The translations under genes were made by a program, and so were the position numbers. A stretch of DNA of 64,000 bases. Origin: Pseudodesulfovibrio sp. zrk46 (GTDB lineage Bacteria; Desulfobacterota; Desulfovibrionia; Desulfovibrionales; Desulfovibrionaceae). Of the stretch, positions 10,559 to 49,271 are shown one piece after another. Each line of letters opens with the position of its first letter. Within the stretch, counting starts at the first letter, position 1. The stretch lies in the NCBI RefSeq assembly GCF_012516435.1, contig NZ_CP051216.1, positions 3,037,669-3,101,668 of the forward strand. Reading direction: 5' to 3'. The notes under the pieces were generated by a model. It saw only the letters and a program-made list of their open reading frames with translations. It was not told the DNA's origin and searched no databases.

Positions 10559-10600
10559 GGAGCCATGTTAGAGACCCTCTCTAACATGGCTCCGACTTTT
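10559..10600 (+). terminator. Strong intrinsic terminator after the LVIVD gene
   Basis: A perfect 15-bp stem (10559-10573 with 10579-10593) with a 5-nt loop is followed by GACTTTT, 18 nt after the stop. It isolates the propeller gene from the polysaccharide genes. Confidence 0.85.
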
Positions 10601-10960
10601 GATATCTCAATAAAAAATCGTCTATGTGTAATAAAGCGCCGAGTTCTGTTGTTCTCCCGGCCTTTGGCTTTAAATAGACAGTTTGTTGTTTTTTTTGCTC
10701 CTAAAATATTGAGACTTTTTTCTAAGAAGCCAACTCTCCGACAGCTATTCGGCTTGAGAATGCATCGGGATTAATCCCGTGGGGCTTATGTCCTTGAGTG
10801 GTTCTTCGTACGGTTTGTATAGAAAGTCATTTGGTGAATGGTTGTCATGATGTTTTACCCGTGTGAGTTTGCGGTTGTGCAGAGTTTGAGCACAGGTCTG
10901 ATTGGATATGATGTTGTTGATATGCTGATGAGCTTATCTGTTTGAAGTGTTGGGGGGAGA
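10601..10960. other. Intergenic region upstream of the polysaccharide genes
   Basis: About 360 nt without a credible gene. It must hold the promoter for the operon starting at 10961, but I find no confident sigma-70 or sigma-54 match. GGGGGGAG directly before 10961 is the ribosome site. Confidence 0.4.
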
Positions 10961-12241: not shown

Positions 12242-12325
12242 AGATGATGGGCATGGTTCAGTAGTAAAAGGGGGGGCTGCTATTGCACTGTGGTGCACGG
12301 CGCTTGGCTATGTAAAGGGTTATTT

Positions 12326-14889: not shown

Positions 14890-14892
14890 ACG

Positions 14893-18773: not shown

Positions 18774-18774
18774 T

Positions 18775-19896: not shown

Positions 19897-19912
19897 TGGA
19901 GAGTTGAAGTCA

Positions 19913-20881: not shown

Positions 20882-20891
20882 GCATAACTGA

Positions 20892-20926
20892 AACTATCAT
20901 CTTTACTTTTTTGCATGGTGATAGTT
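20892..20926 (+). terminator. Possible hairpin terminator before the UDP-glucose dehydrogenase gene
   Basis: A stem of 8-10 bp (AACTATCA 20892-20899 with TGATAGTT 20919-20926) with a 17-19 nt T-rich loop. It has no clean T-run after it, so it may be a weak terminator, or a regulatory repeat, ahead of the gene at 20968. Confidence 0.35.
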
Positions 20927-20967
20927 GTTAATTTGTATCACACTGAAGATTATATGGAGGTGGTACC

Positions 20968-32214: not shown

Positions 32215-35007
32215 ATGGGTTATGTTAAAAAAAGAAGAAACATTATCTGGCTATGTGTCGATGGTCTGCGTGCTGACAGTTTGCAGTCGGCTGGCAATAA
32301 TAAAGTAGAGAGACACTTTATTGACGATGTGGCCAGTCGGGGAGCATTTTTCCCCAATTGTATAGCTGCAGCACAGTCTACGATATCCTCCTCAGCTTCT
32401 TTTTTTACTTCCATGACTCCTGAGATGTGTCGTCAGCCGACTCAGACTGCCAATTGTATTCCTCAGTTTCATCCAGATGCCGTAACTATTGCTGATATTC
32501 TCAAAGCACATGGATACAGCACCTTTCGGTGGAACGACATGGACACTTACTCATGCCACGCAAAGACTGGTTTTGATCATTATGAAGCTGGATACTTTGG
32601 CTTGAGATCAACGCCGAATCTGAGCTTTGACGCAGAGAAGCGTGATGATTTTTTGCAGAAGTTCAAAGAGTGCTCCGAAAGCAAGTTCATCTATATGCAT
32701 TTACTCCATCTTCACGAGTATGGGGGAGAATCTGCGAGGGTTTGGACAGGGCAAAAATACTTGCATCATGTCAGGGAAGTTGCGGACGAGGTTGCTGGAA
32801 TCGTCGATAAGCTTGGCGTTTGCGATGATGACATACTCATGATCCATTCAGACCATGGTGTTACTCTTAATCAGGATTTTGTTGAGTTTGAAGAACGTCA
32901 CGGAGGTACGTTCGCTGAAGGGCGTATTCGTGTCTTCAGTGTGTTCAAGTGCGATGGCATCGAGCCTTCGGTTTACCCTGGTGTGGTTGGTAATATTGAT
33001 TTGGCTCCGACATTGCTTGAGATGGTTGGGATTGACCAGATGAAGGGCCTCGGTAAGAGCCTATTGCCAGTTATTACTGATGGAGCCGAGCGAGGGGGGC
33101 CAATTTTGGCCTGCTGGACGAGTAAGCCAACACACCCTCTTCATGTTATAGGAGGAGAATGTCCCTCTTTTCTCGACAGCGTTTGTCTGCGTGATGATGA
33201 TTGGAAATACACTGTATTTCGAAATGGCGAGAAGACCTTAATAGACCTACGTCCAGGCGCGGAAGATCTGGTAGATGTTAAGTCTGAGCATCCCGATCTT
33301 GTTGAGAAGTATGAAAAGCTCTACAAAGAAATGTACTTGGACCTCCCTGAGACGCCTCATGAACTCTATCAGCAGACAGGGCAGACCTTTTTTAGATCAG
33401 ACATTGTTCCTGAGACATCATTCCTTATGCCGGTACACACGGCTTCTGTGAATTTACGTAAGTCTATTCTGTCATTGATTGATCAGCTCGGATATTTTGA
33501 GATTTTGGTTCTCGATGGAGATGAAAGTGGTGGCGTTGCAGAACTCATGGAAGAGTATTCTGATGATCACCGTATTCGTCATATTCCTGTTTATGGAATT
33601 GAACTGGGTAAGATGCTGAATGATGGTTTGGCTAAAAGTCGCGGTAAGTACATCGCGACTGTTTCCGCTGAATATCGATATACTGAGCATTACCTCTACA
33701 TATTGCTGAATGCTTTGAAGTCTTCGACCTCATCTGATTTTTGCTATGCCGATGCGTATCAGTTTTATAAGGACCCGAGGAAAACAGACTACAATTATAT
33801 CGGTCCTTATCATTTCTATTTCAGAAATGCGAAAAATCAGGGTGGTGTCGGAAGTCATCGATATTTGGGCTTACGTTCTCATTCATCAATGATAGGGGCG
33901 GGATATGTTGGAGATGTTGCACTTTTTACCAGAGAGTTAATTGAAGCTGTTGGTGGTTTTGATGAGTCTGGAGATTCGATTAAGTCAACTTGGGCGAAAA
34001 TGGGAAGGCATACCGACTGTGTGAATATTCCAGTGCCTTTGCTCCTGTCTGATGGCTTGTTATCGCGACCAACGTTTGGTCTGCCAAGTCCTGCCTCGCA
34101 TCACAAAAAAATATCCGTTGTTTTGTGTGGTGATGATCCTTCATTGTTCTGGCCTACTTTGGAGTCCCTGCAGAATCAAAGTGAAACGAACTTTGAAGTT
34201 GTCATGGCTGCGACTCAGAAACAGTTAGCTACAGTCTCTAGCTTAGCAGAGCGCTTCTTTACAATGGAGATGCAACTTTGCGTTGTCGATGAAACTGCAA
34301 GCTTGGATTATAAGTGTAATGTGCTGACTTCGAAGGCTAAAGGGAAATTCCTTACATGGTGCCAAGCTGGTACTTTGTTGCCTAGTTCATATCTTGAAGA
34401 GCTTGTCGCTGCCATAGATGCTAATCCTGAATCGTCTTTTGTCAATGCAAGTCGAATGCTGACAGGAGATGGTAACAAGAAGCAAATCATTACTGCTCAC
34501 GATGTACTTCTTAAAGACGTTTGGATGAGTCCTCAGTCGATTTGGGGAATCTTGTATCGCCGAAGGCTTCACGACGAAATAGGTCTGTTTGACGCAAAAG
34601 TTGGTTCTGCAGGAATGTGGGACATGGTCATGCGTATCGTTGAAACAGGCCGAGGGGTTCCTGTTCCAAATGCAATTTTGATGCAGTCTTCTTTGCATAT
34701 GGATGTTTCGATCGAACAAAGTGATTCAATGAGTCTTTACAAAGAGGCCGTAAATAGGATGGGAGGCCTGATAGATTTAGGGATGATTAATAACGACCTG
34801 TTCTCTGAATCGAGGGAAGAGGATTACTTGGAGCCAGTTCTCGCTCGTTTTGTTGAGCTACTGAAGGTCGCCCCCTTCCTTATGGAATTGAATGTACCGG
34901 TGATTTTCAATGGCGTGCAGCTAGATATTAAATCTGAAAGACAAACAGCACCACCATCTACCAATAGGGCTTCGCCGGGCCATGAAACTGCAAAATCTAG
35001 TAATTGA
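32215..35007 (+). CDS. Sulfatase-like / GT2-like / GT2-like fusion protein
   Basis: A 930-residue soluble protein. Residues ~8-330 are an alkaline-phosphatase-superfamily sulfatase domain: metal Asp16 in CVDGLRAD, and Asp213-His214 in HSDHG. The usual Cys/Ser-x-Pro-x-Arg is replaced by a Ser/Thr-rich QSTISSSASFFTS (54-66), so the nucleophile would be Thr or Ser, not formylglycine, as in phosphoethanolamine or phosphoglycerol transferases. Residues ~395-600 and ~625-850 look like two family 2 glycosyltransferase domains (SFLMPVHTASVNLRKSILSL; ISVVLCGDDPSLFWPTLESL with GGFDES and GLFDAK motifs). The gene lies 113 nt before the phosphonate genes, suggesting transfer of a phosphonate head group to a sugar chain. 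That role is inferred. Confidence 0.7.
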   Translation: MGYVKKRRNIIWLCVDGLRADSLQSAGNNKVERHFIDDVASRGAFFPNCIAAAQSTISSSASFFTSMTPEMCRQPTQTANCIPQFHPDAVTIADILKAHGYSTFRWNDMDTYSCHAKTGFDHYEAGYFGLRSTPNLSFDAEKRDDFLQKFKECSESKFIYMHLLHLHEYGGESARVWTGQKYLHHVREVADEVAGIVDKLGVCDDDILMIHSDHGVTLNQDFVEFEERHGGTFAEGRIRVFSVFKCDGIEPSVYPGVVGNIDLAPTLLEMVGIDQMKGLGKSLLPVITDGAERGGPILACWTSKPTHPLHVIGGECPSFLDSVCLRDDDWKYTVFRNGEKTLIDLRPGAEDLVDVKSEHPDLVEKYEKLYKEMYLDLPETPHELYQQTGQTFFRSDIVPETSFLMPVHTASVNLRKSILSLIDQLGYFEILVLDGDESGGVAELMEEYSDDHRIRHIPVYGIELGKMLNDGLAKSRGKYIATVSAEYRYTEHYLYILLNALKSSTSSDFCYADAYQFYKDPRKTDYNYIGPYHFYFRNAKNQGGVGSHRYLGLRSHSSMIGAGYVGDVALFTRELIEAVGGFDESGDSIKSTWAKMGRHTDCVNIPVPLLLSDGLLSRPTFGLPSPASHHKKISVVLCGDDPSLFWPTLESLQNQSETNFEVVMAATQKQLATVSSLAERFFTMEMQLCVVDETASLDYKCNVLTSKAKGKFLTWCQAGTLLPSSYLEELVAAIDANPESSFVNASRMLTGDGNKKQIITAHDVLLKDVWMSPQSIWGILYRRRLHDEIGLFDAKVGSAGMWDMVMRIVETGRGVPVPNAILMQSSLHMDVSIEQSDSMSLYKEAVNRMGGLIDLGMINNDLFSESREEDYLEPVLARFVELLKVAPFLMELNVPVIFNGVQLDIKSERQTAPPSTNRASPGHETAKSSN

Positions 35008-35120
35008 TTTGTGTTGGAATGGTGTGAGTGTTGTTGTGTCGCAATAGGAATGACTGTGTTTTTGATTGTTGACCAAGGAAACATTAACGAGGTCGATATC
35101 TCAAGGGAAGGCTAGTAGAT

Positions 35121-36449
35121 ATGTATATGAAATCAGAGAAAAGTCACGTCGAGAAAACTGTTTACGTTGGTATGAGCGCTGATCTTATTCATCCTGGGCA
35201 TATGAACATTCTTCAAATTGCAGCAGAACATGGACTTGTCACAGTGGGACTGCTGACTGATAAGGCCATTTCATCATATAAGCGTCTACCCTTCATGAAT
35301 TTCGAACAGCGCAAAGCGGTTGTTGAGAATATCAAAGGTGTGGAGAGAGTTGTTGCTCAAGAAACTCTTGATTATACTGATAATTTGCGTCGATTTAAGC
35401 CTGATATCGTTGTGCATGGTGATGATTGGAAAACAGGTGTTCAAGCCAAGATTCGTCAGGAAGTAATTGATGTTATTTCTGAATGGGGGGGCGAATTGGT
35501 TGAGCCTTCATATACTAAAGGGATTTCATCTACTCATATCCACGCCAGCTTGAAAGAAATCGGAACTACTCCGGATATCCGTCGTCAGCGGTTGCGCAGA
35601 TTGCTTGCCGTTAAGCCTTTGTTGAGAGTTCTTGAAGCGCATAACGGGTTAAGTGCTTTGGTCGTTGAAAATGCTGAAGTAAAAAATGACTCTGGAGCAC
35701 GAACTTTCGACGCTATCTGGGAGAGCAGTCTTACGGATTCTACTAGTAAGGGGAAACCAGATATTGAGGCTGTTGATATTACCTCCCGACTCAATACGGT
35801 GAATGAGATTTTTGAGGTCACCACTAAGCCTATGATTTTTGATGCTGATACAGGTGGCAAGTTGGAGCATTTCGCATTTACTGTTCGTTCTTTAGAGCGT
35901 CTTGGAGTCTCCGCTGTCATTATTGAGGACAAAAAAGGATTGAAGAAGAATTCTTTGTTTGGGACCGAGATTAAGCAGCATCAGGATTCCATAGAGAATT
36001 TTAGTGCCAAGATTAACGCTGGAAAGCAGGCTCAAGTCACTGAAGACTTCATGATCATAGCTCGTATTGAAAGTTTGATCATGGGTAAAGATGTCGATGA
36101 CGCCTTCATAAGGGCCGAGGCCTATATTGAAGCTGGAGCTGACGGAATCATGATTCATGCCAAGGACAAGCAGCCTTTTGATATCATCGAGTTCTGTCGT
36201 CGTTTTCGCGAGAAGGGGTACACCCACCCGCTGGTGGTGGTTCCTACAAGTTACAATGCTATCACCGAAGCTGAACTTGCTGAGATTGGGGTGAACATCG
36301 TAATTTACGGTAATCATTTGCTTAGGGCTGCCTATCCTGCCATGCGCAAAGCCGCTGAATCAATACTTGAGCATGATAGGAGTCTGGAATGCGATGATTT
36401 GTGTATGGGCATCAAAGAAACGTTGGATCTCATTCCTGGCACTAGGTGA
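35121..36449 (+). CDS. pepM: Cytidylyltransferase-phosphoenolpyruvate mutase fusion
   Basis: A 442-residue fusion. Residues ~12-145 are a CTP-type nucleotidyltransferase with the HxGH motif HPGH at 24-27 and a late KGISSTHIH. Residues ~165-442 are PEP mutase, with DADTGG and the diagnostic EDKxxxxxNS motif [10 protein letters not shown] at 269-278, which separates PepM from isocitrate lyase relatives. PepM converts PEP to phosphonopyruvate, the entry step of almost all phosphonates. N-terminal nucleotidyltransferase domains on PepM are known and are thought to make CMP-phosphonates for attachment to macromolecules. The next two genes carry on the pathway. Confidence 0.92.
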
Positions 36450-36454
36450 TAACG

Positions 36455-37576
36455 ATGAAGCCAGATCTCTTTTTAAAAGTTCTAAATGAAAATGGGATTG
36501 GAGCCTTCTATGGGGTTCCGGATTCTACCCTGAAACATTTTTGTGCACATTTGACTGGCCAAGTATCTCAAAAGAAGCATTTGATTTGTGCCAATGAAGG
36601 GGCGGCTATTGGGATGGCCATAGGTTACCACCTTGCTACTGGCGAGATCCCAGTAGTTTATATGCAAAATTCGGGGCTTGGGAATAGTGTTAATCCGCTA
36701 CTTTCACTTGGGGATCCAGATGTCTATAGCATCCCAACTCTTTTGATTATTGGTTGGAGAGGGGAACCTGGTAAAAAGGATGAGCCGCAACACAAAAAGC
36801 AAGGACGGGTTACCCTTGAACTTTTAGAGAGTATGGAAATTCCGTTCTCAATATTGGATAACAATGATGCATATGTGAGTGAGGTCGTTGCTACTGCAAC
36901 AGGTTGGATGAAGGAGAACAATGCCCCTTACGCTCTTGTCATCAAAAAAGGAACCTTCGATAGTGTTGCTTCGTTGCACTTTGATGAAAAGGCGTATGCA
37001 ATGACTCGCGAAACAGCCATCGATCAAATTCTTGAAGCAGTTGAGGATGATAGCATAGTAGTTTCCACTACTGGAATGGCTTCTAGAGAAGTGTTTGAAT
37101 TACGTGAAAAGAAAGGTGAAGCTCATCATAAGGATTTCTTGACGGTTGGAGGCATGGGGCATTGTAGTCAGATTGCTATGGGCATTGCTATGCAAAAGCC
37201 TGACAGACAAGTAATATGTATTGATGGAGATGGTGCCGCTATTATGCATATGGGCTCTATGGCATCTATTGGTGCTGCGAGACTTTCCAACTTAACTCAT
37301 ATCGTAATGAACAATGGCGTCCATGACTCGGTTGGTGGACAACCTAATGCGTCACGTAATGTCACCCTCACTGGAATTGCGACAGCCTGTGGTTATTCTT
37401 CAGTTGGACCAGTCGATACTCCTCAAGCACTGAAGTCTGCCATTCAGGATGCAGGGAGTGCACAGTGTTCTTGTTTCCTCGAAGTCTTTGTACGTCGTGG
37501 ACATAGACCGGAACTCGGTAGGCCGACTCAAACCCCGATCGAAAACAAGAAGGCTTTTATGGAGTACGTCAGATGA
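36455..37576 (+). CDS. ppd: Phosphonopyruvate decarboxylase
   Basis: A 373-residue thiamine diphosphate enzyme. The catalytic Glu is in CANEGAAIGMAIGYHLATG; the ThDP/Mg motif is CIDGDGAAIMHMGSM followed by NNGVHDSVGG. It decarboxylates phosphonopyruvate to phosphonoacetaldehyde, which pulls the unfavourable PepM reaction forward. ATG 36455 is used (AGGTGAT upstream), five bases past the pepM stop. The length is normal for Ppd. Sulfopyruvate decarboxylase is the closest alternative, excluded by the PepM neighbour. Confidence 0.92.
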   Translation: MKPDLFLKVLNENGIGAFYGVPDSTLKHFCAHLTGQVSQKKHLICANEGAAIGMAIGYHLATGEIPVVYMQNSGLGNSVNPLLSLGDPDVYSIPTLLIIGWRGEPGKKDEPQHKKQGRVTLELLESMEIPFSILDNNDAYVSEVVATATGWMKENNAPYALVIKKGTFDSVASLHFDEKAYAMTRETAIDQILEAVEDDSIVVSTTGMASREVFELREKKGEAHHKDFLTVGGMGHCSQIAMGIAMQKPDRQVICIDGDGAAIMHMGSMASIGAARLSNLTHIVMNNGVHDSVGGQPNASRNVTLTGIATACGYSSVGPVDTPQALKSAIQDAGSAQCSCFLEVFVRRGHRPELGRPTQTPIENKKAFMEYVR

Positions 37577-38712
37577 ATCTAGAATTCGTCGGATCCGGTG
37601 CTCTCTCTAAAGCTGTTGATGCGATAGAAGGCATTGACCCTAAGCGCATTTTTCTGGTTACAGGGCAAAGATCCTTCGATGTTTCGGAAGCAAAACAATT
37701 ACTAGGGTCATTTTTGACATCTCGTGATTTTAATCGTTTTTGCGAGTTTTCAACTAATCCCAAAGTGGAAGATGTCATTTCCGGTGTTGAGGCATTCAAG
37801 CAAGGTGAGTATGATTTTATACTTGCCATTGGTGGCGGTAGTGTAATTGATATGGGAAAGCTAATTAATGCTTTTGCCCATACTCAAGGCATCCCAGAAA
37901 TGCTGATCAATGGGGAAGTTGTATTAGAGAATTCCGGTGTGCCTTTGGCAGCTTTCCCCACAACTGCTGGTTCAGGGAGTGAAGTAACACCTTTTGCGGT
38001 AATTTATATCGGGGGAAAGAAATATTCTTTATCAAATGATTATTTAAAACCCGAGGTCGTTGCCGTTGATCCTTTGCTAAGCTCTCGAATGCCGCCATAC
38101 TTAACTGCTTCAAGTGGGTTTGATGCTTTAGCTCAAGCTGTGGAATCCTATTGGGCCGTGGGGGCTACTGGAAAAAGCAGAAGTTATGCTGCGAAAGCCA
38201 TTTCTCTTATCCTTCCCGTATTAGAAAAAGTCGTTGTTCAACCAACAATGTTAGAGCGGGCAGCCATGGCGGAAGGGGCCTACTGGGCCGGCAAGGCAAT
38301 TGGTATTTCTAAAACTACCATAGCTCACGCATTATCTTATTATATTACTACACACTACAATATTCCTCATGGTCATGCTGTAGCTTTGACCCTAGGGAAA
38401 TTTTTTACTGCCAACACAGGTGATTTAGGTGGAAAAGTCACTGTTCCTGGTGGAAAGGCTCATCTAGATGATACTTTCGGGCAGTTAGCACGTCTATTGG
38501 GCCAGCCTGACCCTACATCCTGTGAAGAGTATTGGTTTGACCTTATGGAAGTTTGTGGGCTTGAAAGTGATTTTGGAAAAATTGGGATTCGTACTGCTGA
38601 AGATGTCGAGTGTGTTGTTGAGAGTGTGAACGTGGAGCGTATGAACAATAATCCTGTTAAATTCAGCAAAAATGAGCTGTTAAGATTACTTTTTGATTTG
38701 CATATTAATTGA
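37573..38712 (+). CDS. Iron-containing alcohol dehydrogenase, probable phosphonoacetaldehyde reductase
   Basis: A 379-residue group III Fe-ADH. NAD(P) site GGGSVIDMGK near residue 90; metal ligands in SGFDALAQAVESY and in HALSYYITTHYNIPHGHAVAL. Overlaps ppd by 4 nt. With PepM and Ppd it completes the route PEP to phosphonopyruvate to phosphonoacetaldehyde to 2-hydroxyethylphosphonate, as PhpC-type enzymes do. No aminotransferase is present in the operon, so 2-aminoethylphosphonate is not the expected product. Confidence 0.85.
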   Translation: MNLEFVGSGALSKAVDAIEGIDPKRIFLVTGQRSFDVSEAKQLLGSFLTSRDFNRFCEFSTNPKVEDVISGVEAFKQGEYDFILAIGGGSVIDMGKLINAFAHTQGIPEMLINGEVVLENSGVPLAAFPTTAGSGSEVTPFAVIYIGGKKYSLSNDYLKPEVVAVDPLLSSRMPPYLTASSGFDALAQAVESYWAVGATGKSRSYAAKAISLILPVLEKVVVQPTMLERAAMAEGAYWAGKAIGISKTTIAHALSYYITTHYNIPHGHAVALTLGKFFTANTGDLGGKVTVPGGKAHLDDTFGQLARLLGQPDPTSCEEYWFDLMEVCGLESDFGKIGIRTAEDVECVVESVNVERMNNNPVKFSKNELLRLLFDLHIN

Positions 38713-38767
38713 TCACACTAAATGGTGTCGCCGATAGGGCTATCTAGTTCCGTCATATTGTTTCTAA

Positions 38768-38797
38768 GGCCTGCAACAGTTGTTGTAGGTCTTTTTG
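38768..38797 (+). terminator. Intrinsic terminator of the phosphonate operon
   Basis: A stem of 8-10 bp (38768-38777 with 38782-38791, 4-nt loop) followed by TTTTTG, about 55 nt after the last stop. Confidence 0.85.
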
Positions 38798-39199: not shown

Positions 39200-40216
39200 A
39201 TGAAAACGGTCCCTGTAGAAGAAGCTGTCGGCATGGTCCTTTGCCACGACATGACGAGAATCGTTCCCGGCGAAAGCAAAGGGCCAGCCTTTAAAAAAGG
39301 CCATGTCATCGCCGAAGAAGATATCCCTACCTTGTTGGAAATCGGAAAAGAGCATGTCTACGTGCTCCATATGGAAAAAGGAACCATCCATGAGAATGAA
39401 GCGGCAGAGCGCATTGCTAAAGCCGCTGCAGGACCAGGCATTACTCTTTCTGGAGTAAGTGAAGGGCGCATAAATTTCGAAGCATCTACCGGACTGTTGG
39501 ACATCAATATTGAGGCGTTAAATCGCATCAATTCAATTGAAGAGGTGGTGCTTGCCACCATGCATACAGGACAGCAGGTCACTGAACCACATCCAGTCGC
39601 TGGAACTCGTGTAGTCCCACTTGTTATTGATGAACATAAAATCGAACAAGTTGAACGAATTTGTAGTGAGTATGACTATGTCGTTGGCATTAAACCGTTC
39701 CAACATTTTGATGTGGGATTGGTGACAACAGGCAGTGAGGTCTATCACGGCCGCATCAAGGACAAATTCGGCCCTGTTATACGCAAAAAATTCTCAAAGC
39801 TCGGTTCAACTGTCATGGACCAGCGTCTTTCTTCTGATGATCCTTCCATGACCCGCGATGCCATTCTCGCCTTTATTGCTGAGGGTGCAGAGATGGTCGT
39901 GGTCACTGGTGGAATGTCCGTTGATCCAGATGATCAGACTCCAACTGCAATCCGCGCCACAGGGGCCAAAGTCGTGACCTATGGTTCTCCTACTTTCCCG
40001 GGCGTCATGTTTATGGTGGCAGATTTGAACGGCGTTCCCATTCTCGGATTGCCTGGCTGTGTCATGTATTACCGAGCATCCATTTTTGACTTGATAGTCC
40101 CCCGTTTATTGGCAGGGGACGAGATTACCCGTGAAGACATTGTGGCCATGGGGCATGGCGGTTTTTGTGCTGCTTGCGATGTCTGTCGCTATCCCATTTG
40201 TCCCTTCGGAAAATAG
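39200..40216 (+). CDS. Molybdopterin-binding (MoeA-like) protein with C-terminal cysteines
   Basis: A 338-residue protein. The N-terminal part (VPVEEAVGMVLCHDMTRI, GPAFKKGHVI) is MoeA-like; the core has a MoCF_biosynth fold with VGLVTTGSEVYHGRIKD and TGGMSVDPDDQTP, which bind molybdopterin. The C terminus ends in FCAACDVCRYPICPFGK with four or five cysteines, a probable Fe-S or zinc site not found in ordinary MoeA. It heads the operon for Mop, so it likely helps insert or sense the molybdenum cofactor for that enzyme. The ribosome site GGAG is ~12 nt away. Confidence 0.85.
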   Translation: MKTVPVEEAVGMVLCHDMTRIVPGESKGPAFKKGHVIAEEDIPTLLEIGKEHVYVLHMEKGTIHENEAAERIAKAAAGPGITLSGVSEGRINFEASTGLLDINIEALNRINSIEEVVLATMHTGQQVTEPHPVAGTRVVPLVIDEHKIEQVERICSEYDYVVGIKPFQHFDVGLVTTGSEVYHGRIKDKFGPVIRKKFSKLGSTVMDQRLSSDDPSMTRDAILAFIAEGAEMVVVTGGMSVDPDDQTPTAIRATGAKVVTYGSPTFPGVMFMVADLNGVPILGLPGCVMYYRASIFDLIVPRLLAGDEITREDIVAMGHGGFCAACDVCRYPICPFGK

Positions 40217-40280
40217 TTCTTACCCGCGCCGTCCTGGTGGCGTGGAATTACGACAGTGAACACCAAGGAGGAATACTGTC

Positions 40281-42998
40281 ATGATCAAACTCAATCTCAT
40301 GGTGAACAACGCTCCCAAGCAGGTCATCTGCGAAAAGGATGACACGCTGTCAACCATCCTGCGTGAGAGCCTCGGACTCACTAGCGTCAAGGTCGGTTGC
40401 GGCACTGGTCAGTGCGGCAGTTGTTCCGTCATCGTCGACGGAAAACTCATTCGTTCCTGCTCTTACAAAATGAGTAGAATTAACGATGGGGCTACTATTC
40501 TTACTACTGAGGGAATCGGTACTCCAGACAATCTGCACCCCATCCAGGTATCCTGGATCGCCCATGGCGGCGCACAGTGCGGTTTCTGTACTCCTGGTTT
40601 TATCGTCTCTTCTTATGCTCTTCTCGAAGCGAATCCTTCCCCGACTCGTGAAGACATTCGAGATTGGTTCCAGAAGTATCGTAACGCTTGTCGTTGTACA
40701 GGTTACAAGCAACTGGTCGACTCCGTAATGGACGCTGCAGCTGTTATGCGTGGCGAGAAATCCATGGACGACCTTCTCTTCGAGATTCCTGAAGATGGTC
40801 GCATCTGGGGAACCAAATATCCTCGTCCCACTGGTGTTGCCAAGGTCACTGGTACTCTGGACTACGGTGCAGACCTCGGAATCAAGATGCCTGAAGGAAC
40901 ACTGAAGCTCGCTCTTGTTCAGGCGGAAGTGTCTCACGCTAAGATCTTGTCCATCGACACCGCTGAAGCTGAACAGATGCCTGGTGTTGAAAAGATCGTT
41001 ACCTACAGAGATGTGAAAGGTAAAAACCGCATCACTGGTTTGATTACCTTCCCAACCAACAAGGGTGACGGTTGGGATCGACCCATATTGTGTGATGAGA
41101 AAGTGTTCCAGTATGGCGACGCCATAGCTATCGTGTGTGCCGATACTGAAAAGAACGCCAAGGCTGCCGCGGCGAAGGTAAAAGTAGAACTTGAGCGTCT
41201 GCCCGAATACATGAGTGCCCAGGCTGCCATGGCTGACGATGCCATTGAAATTCATCCCGGTACTCCTAATGTTTACTACACCCAGAAAATCGCGAAGGGT
41301 GCTGAAACTGAGTCCATTTTCGATAGCGCTGATGTTGTCGTTGAGGGTGATTACTTCACCACCCGTCAGCCTCATATGCCCATCGAGCCGGATGTTGGTT
41401 TTGCTTACCTTGATGATGAAGGCAAGCTCTGCATCCACTCCAAATCCATCGGTCTGCACTTGCATTTGTATATGATCGCTCCTGGCTTGGGTGTGGAACC
41501 TGAAAACATGGTCATGGTCCAGAACCCGGCTGGTGGTACTTTCGGTTATAAGTTCTCCCCGACCATGGAAGCTTTGGTTGGTGCAGCCTGTCTCGCCACT
41601 GGCAAGCCTGTGTTCCTTTGTTACGATTACCATCAGCAGATGACATACACCGGTAAGCGTTCGCCCCAGAACACCTCCGTGCGTCTGGCTGCAGACAAAG
41701 ATGGTAAGCTGCTTGGCATGGAAACCGACTGGACCGTTGACCATGGTCCCTACTCAGAGTTCGGTGACTTGCTGACCCTGCGTGGTGCTCAGTTCATTGG
41801 TTCTGGCTACGATATCGCCAATATTCGTGGAGAAGGTCGCACAGTTTGCACCAACCATTGCTGGGGTGCTGCATTCCGCGGCTATGGTGGCCCTGAAGCG
41901 GAGTTCCCCTCTGAGTCTCTCATGGATGAATTGGCTGAGAAGCTTGGCATGGATCCTTTGGAGTTGCGCTACAAGAACGTCTACCGCAAAGGTTCCACCA
42001 CTCCCACTGGCTGTGATCCCGAGGTCTACTCACTGCCTGAAATGCTCGACACACTCCGTCCCAAGTATGAGGAAGCCAAGAAGAAAGCCGAGGCCAATTC
42101 TACTGCTGACGTGAAACGTGGCGTGGGTATCTCTCTTGGTGTGTATGGTTCCGGTCTTGACGGTCCGGATACCGCAGAAGCGGATGTACGCCTGAATGAA
42201 GACGGTACTGTTACAGTTCTGACCTGTTGGCATGACCATGGGCAGGGTGCAGATATGGGTACCTTGGGCTCCGCCCACGAAGCCTTGCGTCCTCTCGGTC
42301 TTGCTCCTGAGCAGATCAAGCTGGTCCTTAACGATACTCGTGTATGTCCTAATGGTGGCCCTGCAGGTGGCTCTCGTTCCCAGGTTGTCGTCGGTAATGC
42401 CATCAAAGTTGGCTGCGAAATGCTTATCAAGGCCATGACCAAGTCCGATGGTTCTTATCGTAGCTATCAGGAGATGGTTGATGAAAATATCGACCTGGTC
42501 CAGCATGGCAAGTGGACTGCTCCGGCTAACGATTGCGACGAAAATGGACAGGGTAAGCCCTTCGCTTGCTACATGTACGGCGTCTGTATGGCTGAAGTTG
42601 CCGTTGAGACTGCCACCGGTAAAACTACCGTGGAAAAGATCACCTTCATCGCTGATATCGGTAAGGTGAACAACTTCCTCGTAGTGGATGGACAGATGTA
42701 CGGCGGCATTGCACAGGCTATTGGTCTGGCTTTGTACGAGGATTATGAAGACATTCAGAAGCATTCCACCCTTAAGGGTGCAGGCTTCCCGTATATCAAA
42801 CAGATTCCGGATGACATGGAAGTGATCTATGTCGAGTCCGAGCGTCCTGATGGCCCGTTCGGCGCCTCTGGTGTTGGTGAAATTCCGCTTTGTATCCCGC
42901 ACCCGGCTATTATCAACGGTATCTACAATGCCTGTGGTGTGCGTGTTCGCGAACTTCCCGCACTTCCTGAAAAGGTGTTGGCTGGCCTCAAAGGTTAA
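40281..42998 (+). CDS. mop: Molybdenum aldehyde oxidoreductase Mop
   Basis: A 905-residue xanthine-oxidase-family enzyme, near the 907 residues of the D. gigas protein. [2Fe-2S] ligands Cys40, Cys45, Cys48, Cys60 and Cys100, Cys103 with the CRC pair (~137/139) align exactly with the crystal structure enzyme. The molybdopterin (MCD) domain follows, with GTFGYKFSPT, AFRGYGGPEAEF, and the catalytic Glu in GASGVGEIP near the C terminus. It oxidises aldehydes to carboxylic acids and passes electrons through its two clusters. It lacks a signal peptide, so it is cytoplasmic. The strong AAGGAGG site suggests high expression. Confidence 0.97.
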   Translation: MIKLNLMVNNAPKQVICEKDDTLSTILRESLGLTSVKVGCGTGQCGSCSVIVDGKLIRSCSYKMSRINDGATILTTEGIGTPDNLHPIQVSWIAHGGAQCGFCTPGFIVSSYALLEANPSPTREDIRDWFQKYRNACRCTGYKQLVDSVMDAAAVMRGEKSMDDLLFEIPEDGRIWGTKYPRPTGVAKVTGTLDYGADLGIKMPEGTLKLALVQAEVSHAKILSIDTAEAEQMPGVEKIVTYRDVKGKNRITGLITFPTNKGDGWDRPILCDEKVFQYGDAIAIVCADTEKNAKAAAAKVKVELERLPEYMSAQAAMADDAIEIHPGTPNVYYTQKIAKGAETESIFDSADVVVEGDYFTTRQPHMPIEPDVGFAYLDDEGKLCIHSKSIGLHLHLYMIAPGLGVEPENMVMVQNPAGGTFGYKFSPTMEALVGAACLATGKPVFLCYDYHQQMTYTGKRSPQNTSVRLAADKDGKLLGMETDWTVDHGPYSEFGDLLTLRGAQFIGSGYDIANIRGEGRTVCTNHCWGAAFRGYGGPEAEFPSESLMDELAEKLGMDPLELRYKNVYRKGSTTPTGCDPEVYSLPEMLDTLRPKYEEAKKKAEANSTADVKRGVGISLGVYGSGLDGPDTAEADVRLNEDGTVTVLTCWHDHGQGADMGTLGSAHEALRPLGLAPEQIKLVLNDTRVCPNGGPAGGSRSQVVVGNAIKVGCEMLIKAMTKSDGSYRSYQEMVDENIDLVQHGKWTAPANDCDENGQGKPFACYMYGVCMAEVAVETATGKTTVEKITFIADIGKVNNFLVVDGQMYGGIAQAIGLALYEDYEDIQKHSTLKGAGFPYIKQIPDDMEVIYVESERPDGPFGASGVGEIPLCIPHPAIINGIYNACGVRVRELPALPEKVLAGLKG

Positions 42999-43014
42999 GA
43001 ATAAACCTTCAATT

Positions 43015-43045
43015 GGAGCGGTCCGTTTATGCGGATCGCTCCTTT
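43015..43045 (+). terminator. Intrinsic terminator after mop
   Basis: An 11-bp stem with one G-T pair (43015-43025 with 43032-43042) and TTTC after it, 16 nt past the mop stop. It covers the ATG at 43029, which argues that this is not the start of the next gene. Likely partial termination, giving more mop than accessory mRNA. Confidence 0.7.
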
Positions 43046-43064
43046 CAAGTTTTTGGAAAAGAGT

Positions 43065-45314
43065 ATGGAACAAGCCGATCTGAGGCGTTTGGAAAGTCAG
43101 TGTGTGCAGGAGGAGACACCTCAGTGTGTTGCCGCCTGCCCTTTGCATGTGGATGCAAAACAGTTCTGCAAGCTCATGGCGCAGCGTAGAATAGACAAGG
43201 CATGGCAGGTGCTTGCCAAGACAATGCCTTTGCCTGGAGTTTTGGCTCGGATGTGCGGTGAACCGTGCAAGGCTGCCTGTGTTCGTCAAGACGTTGGTGG
43301 TCCTATCAATATGGGCACGATGGAACGGTATTGTGCAGAGAACGCCAAGCCAATTAATCCGCCCAAACCATTACCTGCTCGTAATAAATCTGTGGGCGTT
43401 GTTGGGGGCGGATTTACAGGCCTCTGTGCTGCTTGGGAATTGGCTCGGCGTGGCTTTGAGACGACTCTTTATTGTAGTCAGTTGGGTGAAGGTCTACCTC
43501 CCTTCCCGGAAGGAGTACTGGACCGAGAGCTTACTGGGCTTGAGACAATGGGTGTAAAAATTGAAACTGGGTTCGACGCCTCGGTTTCTTTTATCCGCAC
43601 TTTAATTGGTGATATGGATGCCGTGTTTGTGGATTCGGATGTGTTGCCTGAGAGTGTGCGCGATTTTGGTGCTCCTGACGAATTAACCCTTGGCACCCAA
43701 GAGCACGGCCTTTTTGTTAGTTTGCAAGGAGAGGACTCTGCAATCCTTCAAGCAGCAACCGGAAGACGCGCTGCAAATTCCATCGAACGTTTTACTCAAG
43801 GCGTATCCATGGTCACTGGGCGTGAATTGGAAGGTCCATATGAGACGCGTCTTTATACTAACCTAGACAATGTTCAGTCTTTGACTTCAGCTCTTCCGGA
43901 GAGAGATTGTTCGGAGTTGGATGTTCGCGATGAAGCCAAGCGCTGCTTGCAGTGTGAATGCATGGAGTGCGTGAAAAGTTGTGAATATTTGCGTCATTAC
44001 AAATTTTATCCGAAGGTATACGCGCGTCAGATTTACAACAACGAATCTATTGTAATGGGAACACGTCAAGCCAACACCATGATAAATTCGTGTATGCTGT
44101 GTGGTTTGTGCGAGACTGTATGCCCTGAAGATTTTTCGATGGCAGATGTTTGTTTGGAGGCGCGACGTACCATGGTGGAAGGAGATAAGATGCCTCCTTC
44201 GGCTCATGAGTTTGCCTTGCGTGATATGGCATTTGCCAATGGTGAAAAGTGCTCTTTGGCGAAGCACGCTCCTGGTACTGATACAAGTGACTACCTCTTT
44301 TTCCCTGGCTGCCAACTCACTGCGTCTGATCCTAGTGGGGTTGAGGCCGCTTACGCTGATTTGCGTAATCGTCTTGGTAATGTCGGATTGATGCTGCATT
44401 GCTGTGGTGCTCCAGCCGAGTGGTCTGGGCGTGTTGTGTTAGAACGTGACTCAATGAATGATCTTAAACAGATTTGGGAAAGCCTTGGAGCTCCCAAGAT
44501 TATAGCTGCGTGTCCTACCTGTCTTAAGAGCTTGCGAGCAGGACTGCCTAACGCAGAGATTACGTCTCATTGGTCTTTACTTCGTGTTCTCGGCATACGG
44601 GAAGATTCTGTATCCCCTAAAGGTCCGTTTGCTATCAATGATCCATGCGCTGCTCGGCATGATGTCGTTTTGCGTGAAGATATCCGTTCCATACTGGATA
44701 CGCTCGGTGCAGACACGGTGGAGCCGGAGCTTAGTGGAGAGACAACTCAATGCTGTGGTTATGGGGGCCTACTGTCAGAAGCTAATCCTGCGCTTGGAAT
44801 GCATGTGGCAGCAAAAAGAGCCGAGGCCCGGGAAGAAGATTACGTGACATATTGTGTCATGTGCCGAGACATGATGGCCAAGACCGGTAAGCGTGCATTG
44901 CATCTTTATGATTTGCTTTATTCCGAAGTAAATGATCCAGCAGCGCGACCATCTCCTGGGTATTCTGAGCGAAGGGAAAATCGAGTTCGGCTTAAGGAGC
45001 ATCTCTTGCGTAATCTGTGGCGGGAGGAGCCCAATTCAGTCGCAGAGCTGTTTGAGAGCATTGACGTTTCGTTCACAGATGAGGCTCTTCAGCGTATGGA
45101 ACAGCGCCGAATTCTTAAGAGCGACGTTCAGAAAACGTTGTTGGCTGTCCGCGAGTCCGGCAAGCGTTTCGTGCATGCCGAGACTGGGCATTATCTTACA
45201 TCACATCGGCCGGTAATCGTAACCTACTGGGTTGAGTATGAGGAACAGGGGAAGAGCTACCTGGTTCACAACGTGTGGTCGCACCGTATGCATATCAAAG
45301 GGGTAAAGTCATGA
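43065..45314 (+). CDS. Pyridine nucleotide-disulfide oxidoreductase with dicluster and CCG domains (DVU_1558-like)
   Basis: A 749-residue multidomain protein started at ATG 43065. N-terminal GltD-like region: Cys motif CVAACPLHVDAK and MCGEPCKAAC; then a dinucleotide fold VGVVGGGFTGLCAAWELARRG. The middle has 8 cysteines for two 4Fe-4S clusters (CLQCECMECVKSC and CMLCGLCETVCPEDF). The C-terminal half has HdrD/GlpC-like CCG motifs (LHCCGAPAEW, TQCCGYGG). The last ~120 residues are a separate small domain ending in a VTYWVEYEEQG strand. It probably carries electrons between Mop and NAD(P) or a thiol carrier. The same gene follows mop in Desulfovibrio vulgaris (from memory: DVU_1558). Confidence 0.8.
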   Translation: MEQADLRRLESQCVQEETPQCVAACPLHVDAKQFCKLMAQRRIDKAWQVLAKTMPLPGVLARMCGEPCKAACVRQDVGGPINMGTMERYCAENAKPINPPKPLPARNKSVGVVGGGFTGLCAAWELARRGFETTLYCSQLGEGLPPFPEGVLDRELTGLETMGVKIETGFDASVSFIRTLIGDMDAVFVDSDVLPESVRDFGAPDELTLGTQEHGLFVSLQGEDSAILQAATGRRAANSIERFTQGVSMVTGRELEGPYETRLYTNLDNVQSLTSALPERDCSELDVRDEAKRCLQCECMECVKSCEYLRHYKFYPKVYARQIYNNESIVMGTRQANTMINSCMLCGLCETVCPEDFSMADVCLEARRTMVEGDKMPPSAHEFALRDMAFANGEKCSLAKHAPGTDTSDYLFFPGCQLTASDPSGVEAAYADLRNRLGNVGLMLHCCGAPAEWSGRVVLERDSMNDLKQIWESLGAPKIIAACPTCLKSLRAGLPNAEITSHWSLLRVLGIREDSVSPKGPFAINDPCAARHDVVLREDIRSILDTLGADTVEPELSGETTQCCGYGGLLSEANPALGMHVAAKRAEAREEDYVTYCVMCRDMMAKTGKRALHLYDLLYSEVNDPAARPSPGYSERRENRVRLKEHLLRNLWREEPNSVAELFESIDVSFTDEALQRMEQRRILKSDVQKTLLAVRESGKRFVHAETGHYLTSHRPVIVTYWVEYEEQGKSYLVHNVWSHRMHIKGVKS

Positions 45315-45526
45315 GTGTGATCAAGGTTCCTGAAGCTGATTCTGCTGGATGGAGTTGCGCGAATTGTAATGTGGAATTGACCATGCAGCATGTGGAGTTG
45401 GAATACCTCGACTCTTTGTTCAATGTTGAGCTACCAGCCTGTCCCCAGTGTGGGATTGTACTAATCCCTGAGACATTGGCTTTGGGAAAAATGAATCAGG
45501 TGGAGCACCTGCTGGAGGATAAGTAG
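45311..45526 (+). CDS. Small CxxC/CxxC redox or zinc protein (DVU_1557-like)
   Basis: A 71-residue protein. CANC and CPQC motifs 35 residues apart can bind zinc or a rubredoxin-like iron. The start at 45311 overlaps the stop of the flavoprotein gene. The family is known as a conserved redox protein of the Desulfovibrio mop locus; the exact role is unknown. It may be a one-electron carrier between Mop and the flavoprotein. Confidence 0.75.
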   Translation: MSVIKVPEADSAGWSCANCNVELTMQHVELEYLDSLFNVELPACPQCGIVLIPETLALGKMNQVEHLLEDK

Positions 45527-45527
45527 G

Positions 45528-46178
45528 GTGCGTGAGACTATTCCCTTATGGGAGCGTCCCATTCTTCACGAAGTAGCAGGAGGTACATTGCACCCCGGTG
45601 GTTTTACTCTGACAGATCGAGCTGCCGAGTTCATTGGAGTGCTTCCCGGTTGGAATGTTCTTGATGTTGGTTGTGGTTTGGGGACCACAGTGTCTCGTTT
45701 GCGTTCTCGTTTTGGCGCCAGAGCTTTTGGAATAGAAGCTTCATTGAAACAGATTGAACGCGCACAGGGGTTGCCTGGTATTGCACAGGCTCAAGGTGAT
45801 GCATTGCCATTCGGAGATGGTGTCTTTTCTGCTGTCTTTTGCGAGTGTGTACTATCTCTTCTTCAGAATCCACATGAGGGCGTAGCGGAGTTCTTTCGCG
45901 TCCTTCAACCCGGCGGATATCTCGCTTTGTCTGACCTTTGCGCATCTGGATCTCCGATCTTGGAATTTAATTCTTGTGCTGCTCGAGCTATCCCCTTGGA
46001 TGAGATCCCAAAAGTAATAGAGGGATGTGGGTTCGTCATTATGAATATGGAAAACCATACTCGTTTGCTGACAGATCTTGCTGCAAGACTTTTGTTGGCA
46101 GGGGGTGACGGAGCCGATTGTGGCTGTGGACGCCAGGGATTGGGGTATTTCTTAATGATTGCTCGGAAAGAGGGGTAA
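45528..46178 (+). CDS. SAM-dependent methyltransferase (DVU_1556-like)
   Basis: A 216-residue class I methyltransferase. SAM motif I is VLDVGCGLGTTVSRL, with motif II-III in DALPFGDGVFSAVFCECVLS. GTG 45528 has GGAGG nine bases upstream and begins two bases after the previous stop. Near the C terminus GADCGCGRQG adds three cysteines that are not usual in such enzymes. It belongs to the conserved mop-linked set beside a C_GCAxxG_C_C protein and a radical SAM protein. Substrate unknown. Confidence 0.8.
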   Translation: MRETIPLWERPILHEVAGGTLHPGGFTLTDRAAEFIGVLPGWNVLDVGCGLGTTVSRLRSRFGARAFGIEASLKQIERAQGLPGIAQAQGDALPFGDGVFSAVFCECVLSLLQNPHEGVAEFFRVLQPGGYLALSDLCASGSPILEFNSCAARAIPLDEIPKVIEGCGFVIMNMENHTRLLTDLAARLLLAGGDGADCGCGRQGLGYFLMIARKEG

Positions 46179-46181
46179 GTC

Positions 46182-46637
46182 ATGTTAGATGATAGCGGCT
46201 TGAAAATGATTGAATTGGCCGGCATGGGGTACTGTTGCTCCCAGATAATGGTCTTAATGACTTTGGATGAAATTGGGCGCGAAAACCCCGATTTAGTTCG
46301 GTCAGCAGCTGGATTGTGTAATGGTTTAGGAGATTGTTCAGGGACGTGTGGTGTGTACACAGGAGCTGCTTTGAGTCTTGGAATGTATTCCGGAAAGGGG
46401 GCTGAAATGGAAGAGGCCGACGAGCGGTTGGCTCTTATGCTGGAATCGCTTCGTGATTGGTTTACCGAAGCTACCAGTCATTTTGGTGGGACAAGGTGTG
46501 GAGATATTCTAGATGGCCTTTGTGGGCAGCCCGACCCCGCTCGGTGTGGAGGCTTGATTTCAAGTGCCTATGCTCAGATTCGGCAGATTTTGGTAGATAA
46601 TGGTTTTGATCCGTCTGAGGGACGCAACGAATTATGA
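46182..46637 (+). CDS. C_GCAxxG_C_C family protein (DVU_1555-like)
   Basis: A 151-residue protein with CCSQIM near residue 19, then GDCSGTCGVYTGAALSLG, and late cysteines CGDILDGLCGQ and CGG. This spread of cysteines defines the C_GCAxxG_C_C family, proposed to bind metal or Fe-S clusters and often next to redox or radical SAM genes. ATG 46182 has a GAGGGG site, 3 nt after the methyltransferase stop. It may be the protein target or partner of the methyltransferase and radical SAM enzyme. Confidence 0.85.
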   Translation: MLDDSGLKMIELAGMGYCCSQIMVLMTLDEIGRENPDLVRSAAGLCNGLGDCSGTCGVYTGAALSLGMYSGKGAEMEEADERLALMLESLRDWFTEATSHFGGTRCGDILDGLCGQPDPARCGGLISSAYAQIRQILVDNGFDPSEGRNEL

Positions 46638-47965
46638 GTCGTATTCCTCGTAGTGTCTGCCCGGTATGTTTACGTCCTATTCCAGCATCTCATGAAACTG
46701 TGGGGGACGAAACGTTCATAGTGAAGGCGTGTCCGGACCACGGAGAATTTCGTACTGTGGTGTGGCGTGGCTCACCTGATTTTTCAGATTGGTCGAGGAC
46801 CAAAATCCCTTCTCTCCCCAGAAAGCCATTTACCCGTGCTGAGAAAGGATGCCCTATGGATTGTGGCTTATGTGATGGTCATCGTCAGCATACTTGCACG
46901 GCAGTATTGGAAATCACTCAACGTTGTAATCTTTCATGCCCTGTCTGTTTTGCCTCTTCGGGAAAGGGGACTCAAGCAGAACCTGATGTCGATAAAATTG
47001 ATTTTCTTCTAGATAGAGTTTTGGAATCTTCCGGTAGATGTAATTTGCAACTATCTGGTGGAGAGCCCACTGTTCGGGCTGATCTCGATCGTTTGATTCG
47101 CCTTGCCAAGAATAAAGGGTTTCCTTTTGTTCAACTCAACTCTAACGGGCTCCGGTTTGCTCATGAAGATGGATTTGCCGAAAAGATGGCTCAGGTTGGA
47201 TTGGATTCCGTATTTTTGCAGTTTGATGGGACAGAGAATGACATTTATCAGGAGTTACGTGGTCAGCCTTTATTGGATGATAAGCTTCGAGCTATCAGCA
47301 ACCTAATGAATGCCGGCATAGGCATTGTTCTTGTCCCAACTGTCGTTCCAGGAGTAAACGATAGTAATTTGGGAGCAATAATCCAGTTAGCTTCAAAATT
47401 TTCTCCGGGCGTCCGGGGTGTGCATTTCCAGCCGGTGAGCTATTTCGGACGTTATCCTGATTCGCCTCAAGATAATCAGCGTATTACTCTTCCTGAAATT
47501 ATGAGATTGCTAGAATGCCAGACCCATGGAGCAATGCGTGCATCCCACTTTACGCCGCCAGGATGTGAGCATTCCCACTGTTCATTTCATGCAAATTATG
47601 TTGTTTCGAACAATGGAAAACTGACTCGTTTGGGAACAGATGGGAAGTGTGGTTGCACACCGCGTCCAGCATCAGAAGGAGCAGACAAAGCTAAGGCTTT
47701 TGTTAAGCGTCAATGGACAGCTCCCATGACTGAGCTTTCCGAGTTTAAGGCTCAAGATGATCTTGATCGATTTATTTCCAGAGCGGCAAGCCATACGTTG
47801 GCGATTTCCGCAATGGCGTTTCAGGATTGTTGGACTTTGGATCTTGAACGCCTAAAAGGGTGCTGTATTCACGAAGTTGCACCGGATGGACGGCTTATTC
47901 CGTTTTGCGCATATAACCTTACATCTATGAGTGGCGAAGCTCTGTATCGGGGTAAAGCACAATGA
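46634..47965 (+). CDS. Radical SAM protein of the Tes/MJ0619-like group (DVU_1554-like)
   Basis: A 443-residue protein. Before the radical SAM motif there are extra cysteines: CPVCLRPIPA at the N terminus and CPMDCGLCDGH near residue 75. The radical SAM triad is in TQRCNLSCPVCFASSG, and the SAM loop in LSGGEPTVR. A C-terminal Cys/His set (CEHSHCSF, CCIHEVAPDGRLIPFC) suggests further clusters. The layout resembles MJ0619/Tes-type radical SAM enzymes, which couple or methylate unreactive carbons. In this locus the substrate may be a cofactor or a cysteine-rich protein. Overlaps neighbours on both sides, so it is translationally coupled. Confidence 0.8.
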   Translation: MSRIPRSVCPVCLRPIPASHETVGDETFIVKACPDHGEFRTVVWRGSPDFSDWSRTKIPSLPRKPFTRAEKGCPMDCGLCDGHRQHTCTAVLEITQRCNLSCPVCFASSGKGTQAEPDVDKIDFLLDRVLESSGRCNLQLSGGEPTVRADLDRLIRLAKNKGFPFVQLNSNGLRFAHEDGFAEKMAQVGLDSVFLQFDGTENDIYQELRGQPLLDDKLRAISNLMNAGIGIVLVPTVVPGVNDSNLGAIIQLASKFSPGVRGVHFQPVSYFGRYPDSPQDNQRITLPEIMRLLECQTHGAMRASHFTPPGCEHSHCSFHANYVVSNNGKLTRLGTDGKCGCTPRPASEGADKAKAFVKRQWTAPMTELSEFKAQDDLDRFISRAASHTLAISAMAFQDCWTLDLERLKGCCIHEVAPDGRLIPFCAYNLTSMSGEALYRGKAQ

Positions 47966-49269: not shown

Positions 49270-49271
49270 AG

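Follow-up and report, generated by a model that had tools for sequence, protein, structure and literature searches.

In fosfomycin producers, the enzymes Fom1, Fom2 and FomC take phosphoenolpyruvate (PEP) to cytidylyl-2-hydroxyethylphosphonate, as described in the accessible text of PMC8158854. The fusion of a PF01467 domain to PEP mutase (PepM) is common, being found in 23.6% of 1485 PepM proteins, and the steps that follow formation of the C-P bond in phosphonyl tailoring are called enigmatic in the open text of the same survey (PMC6697681). In the accessible text of PMC10434233, the transferase linked with a CDP-activated donor is LicD, and PptA is tied to pathways that make phosphatidylcholine. 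The present analysis concerns a stretch of 64,000 nucleotides from Pseudodesulfovibrio sp. zrk46 (contig NZ_CP051216.1; the whole stretch is referred to here as the window), which encodes a 930-residue protein joining a sulfatase-fold domain to two glycosyltransferase family 2 (GT2)-like domains. Its gene is followed by genes for a cytidylyltransferase (CyTase)-PepM fusion, a phosphonopyruvate decarboxylase (Ppd) and an Fe-alcohol dehydrogenase (Fe-ADH). Comparison of related genomes, in which the 930-residue fusion is accompanied by one or the other of two CTP-activation modules, makes it probable that this protein is a sulfatase-fold enzyme of the cytosol that transfers phospho- or phosphonoalkyl groups from CMP-activated donors, and one member of a family of such enzymes. 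With a little less assurance, we lean towards regarding the family as a new transferase class, soluble, with GT2-like acceptor domains joined to the sulfatase fold, with interchangeable donor modules, and with a two-aspartate head-group switch that would have changed at least two times independently as the donor went from a cationic amine to neutral 2-hydroxyethylphosphonate (HEP).

The window operon and its predicted donor

The genes of the operon are as follows.
32215..35007, plus strand: sulfatase-fold/GT2-like/GT2-like fusion, 930 aa (Pfam; homologs, 12 genomes including that of the window)
35121..36449, plus strand: CyTase-PepM fusion, Fom1-like, 442 aa (PF01467 and PF13714; TIGR02320 over cut-off)
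36446..37576, plus strand: Ppd, phosphonopyruvate decarboxylase (Fom2/AepY role), 376 aa, GTG start (TIGR03297)
37573..38712, plus strand: Fe-ADH, proposed phosphonoacetaldehyde reductase (FomC/PhpC role), 379 aa (PF00465)

All four open reading frames (ORFs) were confirmed in the window sequence at these positions, on one strand as an earlier sequence-only reading of the window had described them, and the ORFs of Ppd and Fe-ADH each overlap the preceding gene by 4 bases. The second protein combines the Pfam domains CTP_transf_like and PEP_mutase, scores 405.8 bits against a cut-off of 319.55 with the NCBIfam PEP mutase model, and carries the motifs EDKxxxxxNS in its PepM part and HPGH (of the HxGH type) in its CyTase part. 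Residues 13-147 of the CyTase align with PDB entry 5x3d without a gap over 135 residues (E 6.7e-60); we take 5x3d to be the CyTase of Fom1, and the PDB listing names it a PEP phosphomutase. The third protein likewise exceeds the cut-off of the NCBIfam model for phosphonopyruvate decarboxylase (491.5 against 312.5 bits), and the nearest NCBIfam model to the Fe-ADH is PsrA, under its cut-off (171.7 against 423.7). No match to an aminoethylphosphonate (AEP) transaminase was found for any of the four proteins in Pfam or NCBIfam (for Ppd, among the best 25 of 48 matches).

By family membership and by likeness to the fosfomycin enzymes, PepM, Ppd and Fe-ADH would take PEP to HEP, and the CyTase domain would convert HEP to its cytidylyl form, CMP-HEP. 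Because the enzyme set is the same as Fom1/Fom2/FomC, the CyTase matches that of Fom1 and no AEP transaminase was matched, CMP-HEP is the best-supported candidate for the product of the trio. Synthesis of HEP and its activation with CTP, both proposed in the sequence-only reading, are thus upheld as predictions, and its remark that nucleotidyl activation is known elsewhere is borne out by the PF01467-PepM fusions in the accessible text of PMC6697681. The gene order PepM, Ppd, ADH is the same in four further genomes (G140, G129, G149 and G597). Three other loci of the phylum (L126, L127 and L129) hold CyTase-PepM and Ppd together with a sequence resembling an alcohol dehydrogenase (32-33% identity), and lack the 930-residue type of fusion.

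Donor modules in the genomes that carry the fusion

The distribution of the fusion was examined in a family sample (199 genomes of the window's family) and in a two-genera set (53 genomes, 36 + 17). In the family sample, 90 genomes matched the fusion, 33 matched PepM and 67 matched a nucleotidyltransferase (NTase)-CobD protein that marks the second module. After exclusion of short GT2 or sulfatase stretches with E above 1e-9 (80 genomes), of matches under the PepM cut-off (27) and of matches that covered only the CobD-like half (61), the fusion was retained in 10 genomes, PepM over its cut-off in six and full-length NTase-CobD in six. PepM was present in four of the 10 fusion genomes, and the genomes with NTase-CobD were exactly the six fusion genomes without PepM. 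Each fusion genome had exactly one module (10/10), and 187 of the 189 others had neither, the remaining two (G162 and G111) having PepM only and no fusion. Fisher's test on this 199-genome table gives 3e-15, a value that ignores relatedness and is given little weight. In the two-genera set, with E limits of 1e-60 for CyTase-PepM and 1e-100 for NTase-CobD, the fusion was found in 11 genomes (2/36 and 9/17), CyTase-PepM in five and NTase-CobD in six, all inside those 11 and never both together; all 42 genomes without the fusion had neither module. G597, which was found after the hypothesis had been formed, fits the one-module rule. G596 of this set was recognised, from its coordinates, as UBA2564. 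Together with G109, whose fusion is split into two frames, the total is 12 fusion genomes, five with CyTase-PepM and seven with the NTase-CobD type, called here the amine module.

The sequence-only reading had set beforehand, as a sign that it was wrong, a fusion occurring mostly without pepM. Taken literally this is what was found, in that seven of the 12 fusion genomes lack PepM over cut-off, and a fusion belonging strictly to phosphonate pathways was rejected on that count; yet in each of these seven a different module for CTP activation lies beside the fusion. This makes the case for a transferase stronger and extends it past phosphonates.

In the six amine-module genomes of the family sample, the fusion lies directly behind genes for a protein of ~620 residues, in which an NTase is fused to a class I-II pyridoxal phosphate (PLP) enzyme, and for a methyltransferase of ~240 residues. 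The domain scans of the NTase fusion covered three loci (L064, L066 and L072). The best PDB matches of the NTase half are 6pd1 (PntC-type) and 1jyk (LicC, CTP:phosphocholine cytidylyltransferase); the PLP half matches CobD-type decarboxylases, with 6oux, listed as a 'threonine phosphate decarboxylase-like enzyme', as best PDB match. The latter is presumably a phosphoserine decarboxylase giving ethanolamine phosphate. The methyltransferase has a homolog (38% identity over 227 residues) in another genome of the phylum, located in a cluster that also contains PepM and an AEP-transaminase homolog (L130, G215, 3011-10180); this context fits N-methylation of aminoethyl phosphate or phosphonate, and suggests N-methylated AEP as the product of that cluster. 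From its domains, the amine module should supply CDP-ethanolamine or methylated forms up to CDP-choline, which would be made by a LicC/PntC-like NTase, a CobD-like phosphoserine decarboxylase and the methyltransferase.

One locus is found with and without this module. In UBA2564 (L108) and G117, the order is RmlC-CvpA-MazG, then NTase-CobD and methyltransferase, then the fusion. In G140, G149, G129 and G597, the fusion comes after RmlC-CvpA-MazG, the PepM-Ppd-ADH trio lies elsewhere in the genome, and no match to NTase-CobD or the methyltransferase was found in the fetched fusion-locus stretches (RmlC and CvpA were named by eye, MazG by a Pfam match). The RmlC-CvpA-MazG set was not seen in the fetched stretches of the other amine-module genomes. 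On a tree of 11 fusions, from which G597 was left out, the distribution of PepM requires two changes or more, over branches with good support, while the CyTase-PepM proteins linked to fusions fall into a single, moderately supported clade (89/85). Most simply, one type of PepM trio would have reached two lineages that already held the fusion.

None of the 12 fusion genomes has a match to LicD (PF04991) at E 0.01 (0/12), and the fusion protein itself has none either. Among the genomes with PepM only, G111 has an AepZ-type transaminase and G162 has a weak LicD match beside PepM (24 bits over 35 positions; 21 bits in another scan, under the cut-off of 22.6). That match lies in a TPR protein of the G162 PepM cluster (L076, 22-5752), which also encodes a radical SAM/SPASM protein with a second cytidylyltransferase-like domain fused to it. 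A wide distribution of the fusion was considered and dropped: the window's own genome is the only one of 395 genomes of the phylum to carry it at an E limit of 1e-25, and a search of an 84,980-species collection with two short patterns, by which relatives may be missed, gave four loci (UBA2564, G074, G109 and L111). The last of these, from Verrucomicrobiia, was rejected as a relative, being an ordinary sulfatase that carries CTPSR and lacks a GT2 domain. The source genome is a single contig of 4.08 Mb, with one full match and one weak partial match each for PepM and the fusion. Since the named relatives of the fusion belong to Desulfovibrio and Solidesulfovibrio, the earlier description of the host as a sulfate reducer is sound.

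The fusion protein: predicted nucleophile and donor-linked residues

The features of the fusion protein are as follows.
32236..33033, plus strand: sulfatase (alkaline phosphatase superfamily) domain, residues 8-273 (PF00884, E 1e-21)
32380..32382, plus strand: codon of Thr56, predicted nucleophile at the sulfatase Cys/Ser position (profile alignment to 9koq)
32533..32535, plus strand: residue 107 (Asn in the window), donor-linked; Asp in 7/7 amine-module and 0/5 PepM-module fusions
32704..32706, plus strand: residue 164 (Leu in the window), donor-linked; Asp in 7/7 amine-module fusions, Leu/Tyr in 5/5 PepM-module fusions
33418..33837, plus strand: first GT2-like domain, residues 402-541 (PF00535); SAE at the DxD position, placed by eye
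34114..34764, plus strand: second GT2-like domain, residues ~634-850 (profile alignment to chondroitin synthase 2z87); QAGT at the DxDD position

The N-terminal domain has the sulfatase fold of the alkaline phosphatase superfamily, both by PF00884 and by its metal-site residues D16, D213 and H214, which, together with T56, are identical in 12/12 fusions. In the profile alignment, Thr56 falls onto the Cys of CVPAR in the sulfatase 9koq, and with Thr at this position throughout the fusions, formylglycine chemistry is not expected there. The motif [CS]xPxR is absent from the window fusion protein; CQPKR occurs in five of nine fusions tested, but ~60 residues beyond the nucleophile position. Membership of the type I sulfatases, in which the Cys/Ser of CxPxR becomes formylglycine, was rejected on the Thr at the aligned position in 12/12, and 'sulfatase' as the true function was dropped with it, there being no Cys/Ser formylglycine motif at the nucleophile position. 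Phosphoethanolamine transferases of the alkaline phosphatase superfamily, such as EptA, use a Thr nucleophile. EptA, PptA and LptA are anchored in the membrane through N-terminal helices, have a periplasmic catalytic domain and use lipid donors. The highest 19-residue Kyte-Doolittle mean of the window fusion is 1.48, at which no membrane helix is expected; among the nine fusions (of 12) that were tested, this maximum stays below 1.6 in eight and reaches 1.82 near the C-terminus in the ninth, and none has an N-terminal hydrophobic segment. The lack of such a segment sets the fusion apart from membrane-bound, lipid-donor enzymes of the EptA/PptA kind and fits a cytosolic nucleotide donor.

The seven amine-module fusions agree throughout at 115 columns. 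Three of these (D107, A145 and D164) are changed in all five PepM fusions, and no other column of this set is changed in every one of the four PepM fusions of group g7. The window fusion differs at 13 of the 115 columns, including all three (hypergeometric p 0.0012). When 378 partitions of the same shape were compared, 14 gave one such column, and the real partition alone gave more than one. Residue 107 aligns with the Gly of the GK loop in 9koq and 6hr5, and residue 164 lies three residues before H167, which aligns with the His of APH in 6hr5; we take the GK and APH stretches to be active-site loops of sulfatases. Acids at 107 and 164 where the head group would be cationic, and their absence where it would be neutral, are what one would expect of a sulfatase domain that handles the donor.

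The following mechanism is proposed. In the cytosol, Thr56 of the sulfatase-fold domain would attack the phosphonate phosphorus of CMP-HEP, with a metal held by D16, D213 and H214, and CMP would leave. The HEP group would then be passed to a hydroxyl of a surface-glycan precursor held by the GT2-like domains. The relatives of the fusion would use CDP-ethanolamine or its N-methylated forms up to CDP-choline in the same way, and the donor head group would be read by the acids at 107 and 164, which may have been lost once the donor became neutral HEP.

Alternative explanations, setting and relation to known systems

The GT2-like half of the protein invites a wider role, in which the fusion would both attach HEP and polymerise the glycan through two active GT2 domains, as the sequence-only reading had supposed. 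The GT2 relationship is clear: Pfam detects one such stretch in the window protein and, in the relatives L064 and L066, two, and the second domain has profile matches to chondroitin and heparosan synthases; moreover, nine g7 relatives retain Asp at both ends of the DxDD motif in domain 2. However, DxD is the metal motif of active GT2 glycosyltransferases, and its first Asp, at a position placed by eye, is missing from domain 1 in 12/12 fusions, while in domain 2, aligned to DSDD of 2z87, both Asp are lost in the window, G046 and G109. On this ground the window protein was rejected as an active GT2 glycosyltransferase; its GT2-like domains more likely bind an acceptor than build a chain, and the double role is improbable. 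As to what the acceptor may be, a surface glycan is the best guess. Downstream of the closest homolog of the fusion, in G046 (L064, 101-6900), are genes for a sugar nucleotidyltransferase, dehydratase/epimerases, a C-methyltransferase and a sulfotransferase, which suggest a branched, possibly sulfated sugar acceptor; the fusion adjoins a GT1 gene in G149 and a PMT_2-type glycosyltransferase gene in G109, and an RmlC-like gene (by eye) lies near it in six g7 genomes. These neighbours speak against the same chemistry directed at a protein such as flagellin or at a lipid. Some room is left for that acceptor by the few other g7 neighbours scanned, which are mixed, form no clear polysaccharide cluster and are not clearly sugar genes (MazG, META/DUF4377, CN_hydrolase and one without a family), and we regard it as unlikely. 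In the window, the nearest polysaccharide genes (by eye) are ~10 kb away. There, 9326-22302 holds a polysaccharide-type cluster, also recognised by eye, with flippase-like, glycosyltransferase, Wzy-like polymerase, acyltransferase, radical SAM protein and UDP-glucose dehydrogenase genes, and this cluster is a possible source of the acceptor for HEP.

Two further explanations deny the transfer itself. The sulfatase domain could be a hydrolase, similar to phosphodiesterases or phosphonate monoester hydrolases, that trims a glycan or recycles CMP-HEP, the fusion merely accompanying the modules. Its sequence neighbours are indeed sulfatases and, weakly, the phosphonate monoester hydrolase 4upk, and hydrolases with a Thr nucleophile do exist in the alkaline phosphatase superfamily. 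This is nevertheless very unlikely, given that the nucleophile position has no Cys/Ser of a formylglycine motif, that the fusion is strictly paired with CTP-activation modules, which would be futile under hydrolysis, and that no LicD was found in the 12 genomes, which leaves them with no other known transferase of that type. Alternatively, CMP-HEP could feed a diffusible, fosfomycin-like natural product, and the fusion could serve to make some unrelated glycan. The fosfomycin pathway does have the same set of enzymes as the trio, but no Fom3- or Fom4-like gene was recognised by eye beside it (no model-based or genome-wide search was made), and the match between fusion and donor module is complete across the 53 genomes; we consider this highly improbable. 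Transfer of HEP by the sulfatase-fold domain is favoured by Thr56, the partner modules, the lack of LicD matches and the donor-linked residue changes taken together. The sequence-only reading can thus be kept in part: the synthesis and activation of HEP and the transferase role are supported, and chain-building by the GT2-like domains is not.

Several observations weigh against a donor-specific transferase family. The column test rests on two independent events, and column 164 had been noticed before the systematic scan; position 145 (Ala to Asp/Asn) shifts in the opposite direction in charge, and columns 125 and 142, which are uniform across the PepM fusions and differ in the amine group, have been given no reading. 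The fusion genomes are related, with the four g7 PepM genomes clustering together, so their counts are not independent, and in four of five PepM genomes the trio is not adjacent to the fusion. Among the ORFs of 13 other PepM loci of the phylum, called with a simple longest-ORF method (nine loci over the PepM cut-off and four below), there was no sulfatase-like gene of the fusion's family, so that such a gene is not a general partner of PepM. The CDP-ethanolamine or CDP-choline product is read from domains, and the amine-module proteins were all under the NCBIfam cut-off among the matches listed. The NTase half scores best in NCBIfam with sugar-1-phosphate models (AglF, GlmU-like); it may thus yet be a sugar enzyme, a reading set aside on the PDB matches to 6pd1 and 1jyk.

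The operon has a GC content of 0.44 over 32215-38712, against 0.52 and 0.49 in the flanking stretches, in keeping with acquisition as one block. It is followed by one further feature.
38766..38793, plus strand: terminator-like hairpin downstream of the operon, 12-pair stem and T-rich tail (consensus match only)
Evidence from this hairpin is weak, as the region holds five terminator-like sites where shuffled sequences average 5.9, with no excess over chance. Directly downstream of the operon, at 39200-51984, lie molybdenum hydroxylase/aldehyde oxidoreductase-like genes with MoeA-, XdhC- and MocA-like maturation genes, all named by eye.

Among known systems, the closest to the trio is that of Fom1, Fom2 and FomC in Streptomyces, with the same three-enzyme route from PEP to CMP-HEP and, in Fom1, a CyTase-PepM fusion (PMC8158854 and PMC6697681, in their accessible text); there, CMP-HEP is an antibiotic intermediate, whereas here it is the predicted donor of a transfer. 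Phosphonyl tailoring of the PntC/Ppm type likewise uses nucleotidyl activation, often fused to PepM, for the tailoring of cell surfaces (PMC6697681), but the neighbours named there are LicD-like phosphotransferases or glycosyltransferases, and a sulfatase is never mentioned in the main text of that paper; the candidate here is a sulfatase-fold fusion. In the Lic-1 system, a CDP-activated donor, CDP-choline, also serves a glycan, according to the accessible text of PMC10434233; LicD belongs to an unrelated transferase family. EptA, PptA and LptA share the alkaline phosphatase superfamily and similar head groups (PMC10434233, accessible text), whereas no membrane helix is predicted for the window fusion, and its partners are CTP-activation genes; the fusion resembles them in its Thr nucleophile, by alignment only, and differs in N-terminal membrane helices, which were lacking in the nine of 12 fusions tested. 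The amine module resembles the PntC-type NTase/aminotransferase fusion in joining an NTase to a PLP enzyme and in the match of its N-terminal half to 6pd1, and differs in that its PLP half is CobD-like (6oux) and not class V, and in that the seven genomes holding it lack PepM. We take 6pd1 to be from Treponema denticola.

No description of a sulfatase-fold transferase of CMP-linked donors, or of such a fusion, was found in the open-access papers searched. If the proposal is right, HEP-bearing and choline- or ethanolamine-bearing surface glycans would be predicted in sulfate reducers, and the former would bear on the source of polymer-bound phosphonates. The fusion offers a concrete, LicD-unrelated candidate for the steps called enigmatic, in which the nucleophile and two residues for donor specificity can be predicted and for which nature provides pairs with apparently exchanged donors. 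Up to CMP-HEP the pathway is known, and the superfamily and the donor logic are each known as well; the transferase with its interchangeable modules appears to be new, and only as a combination.

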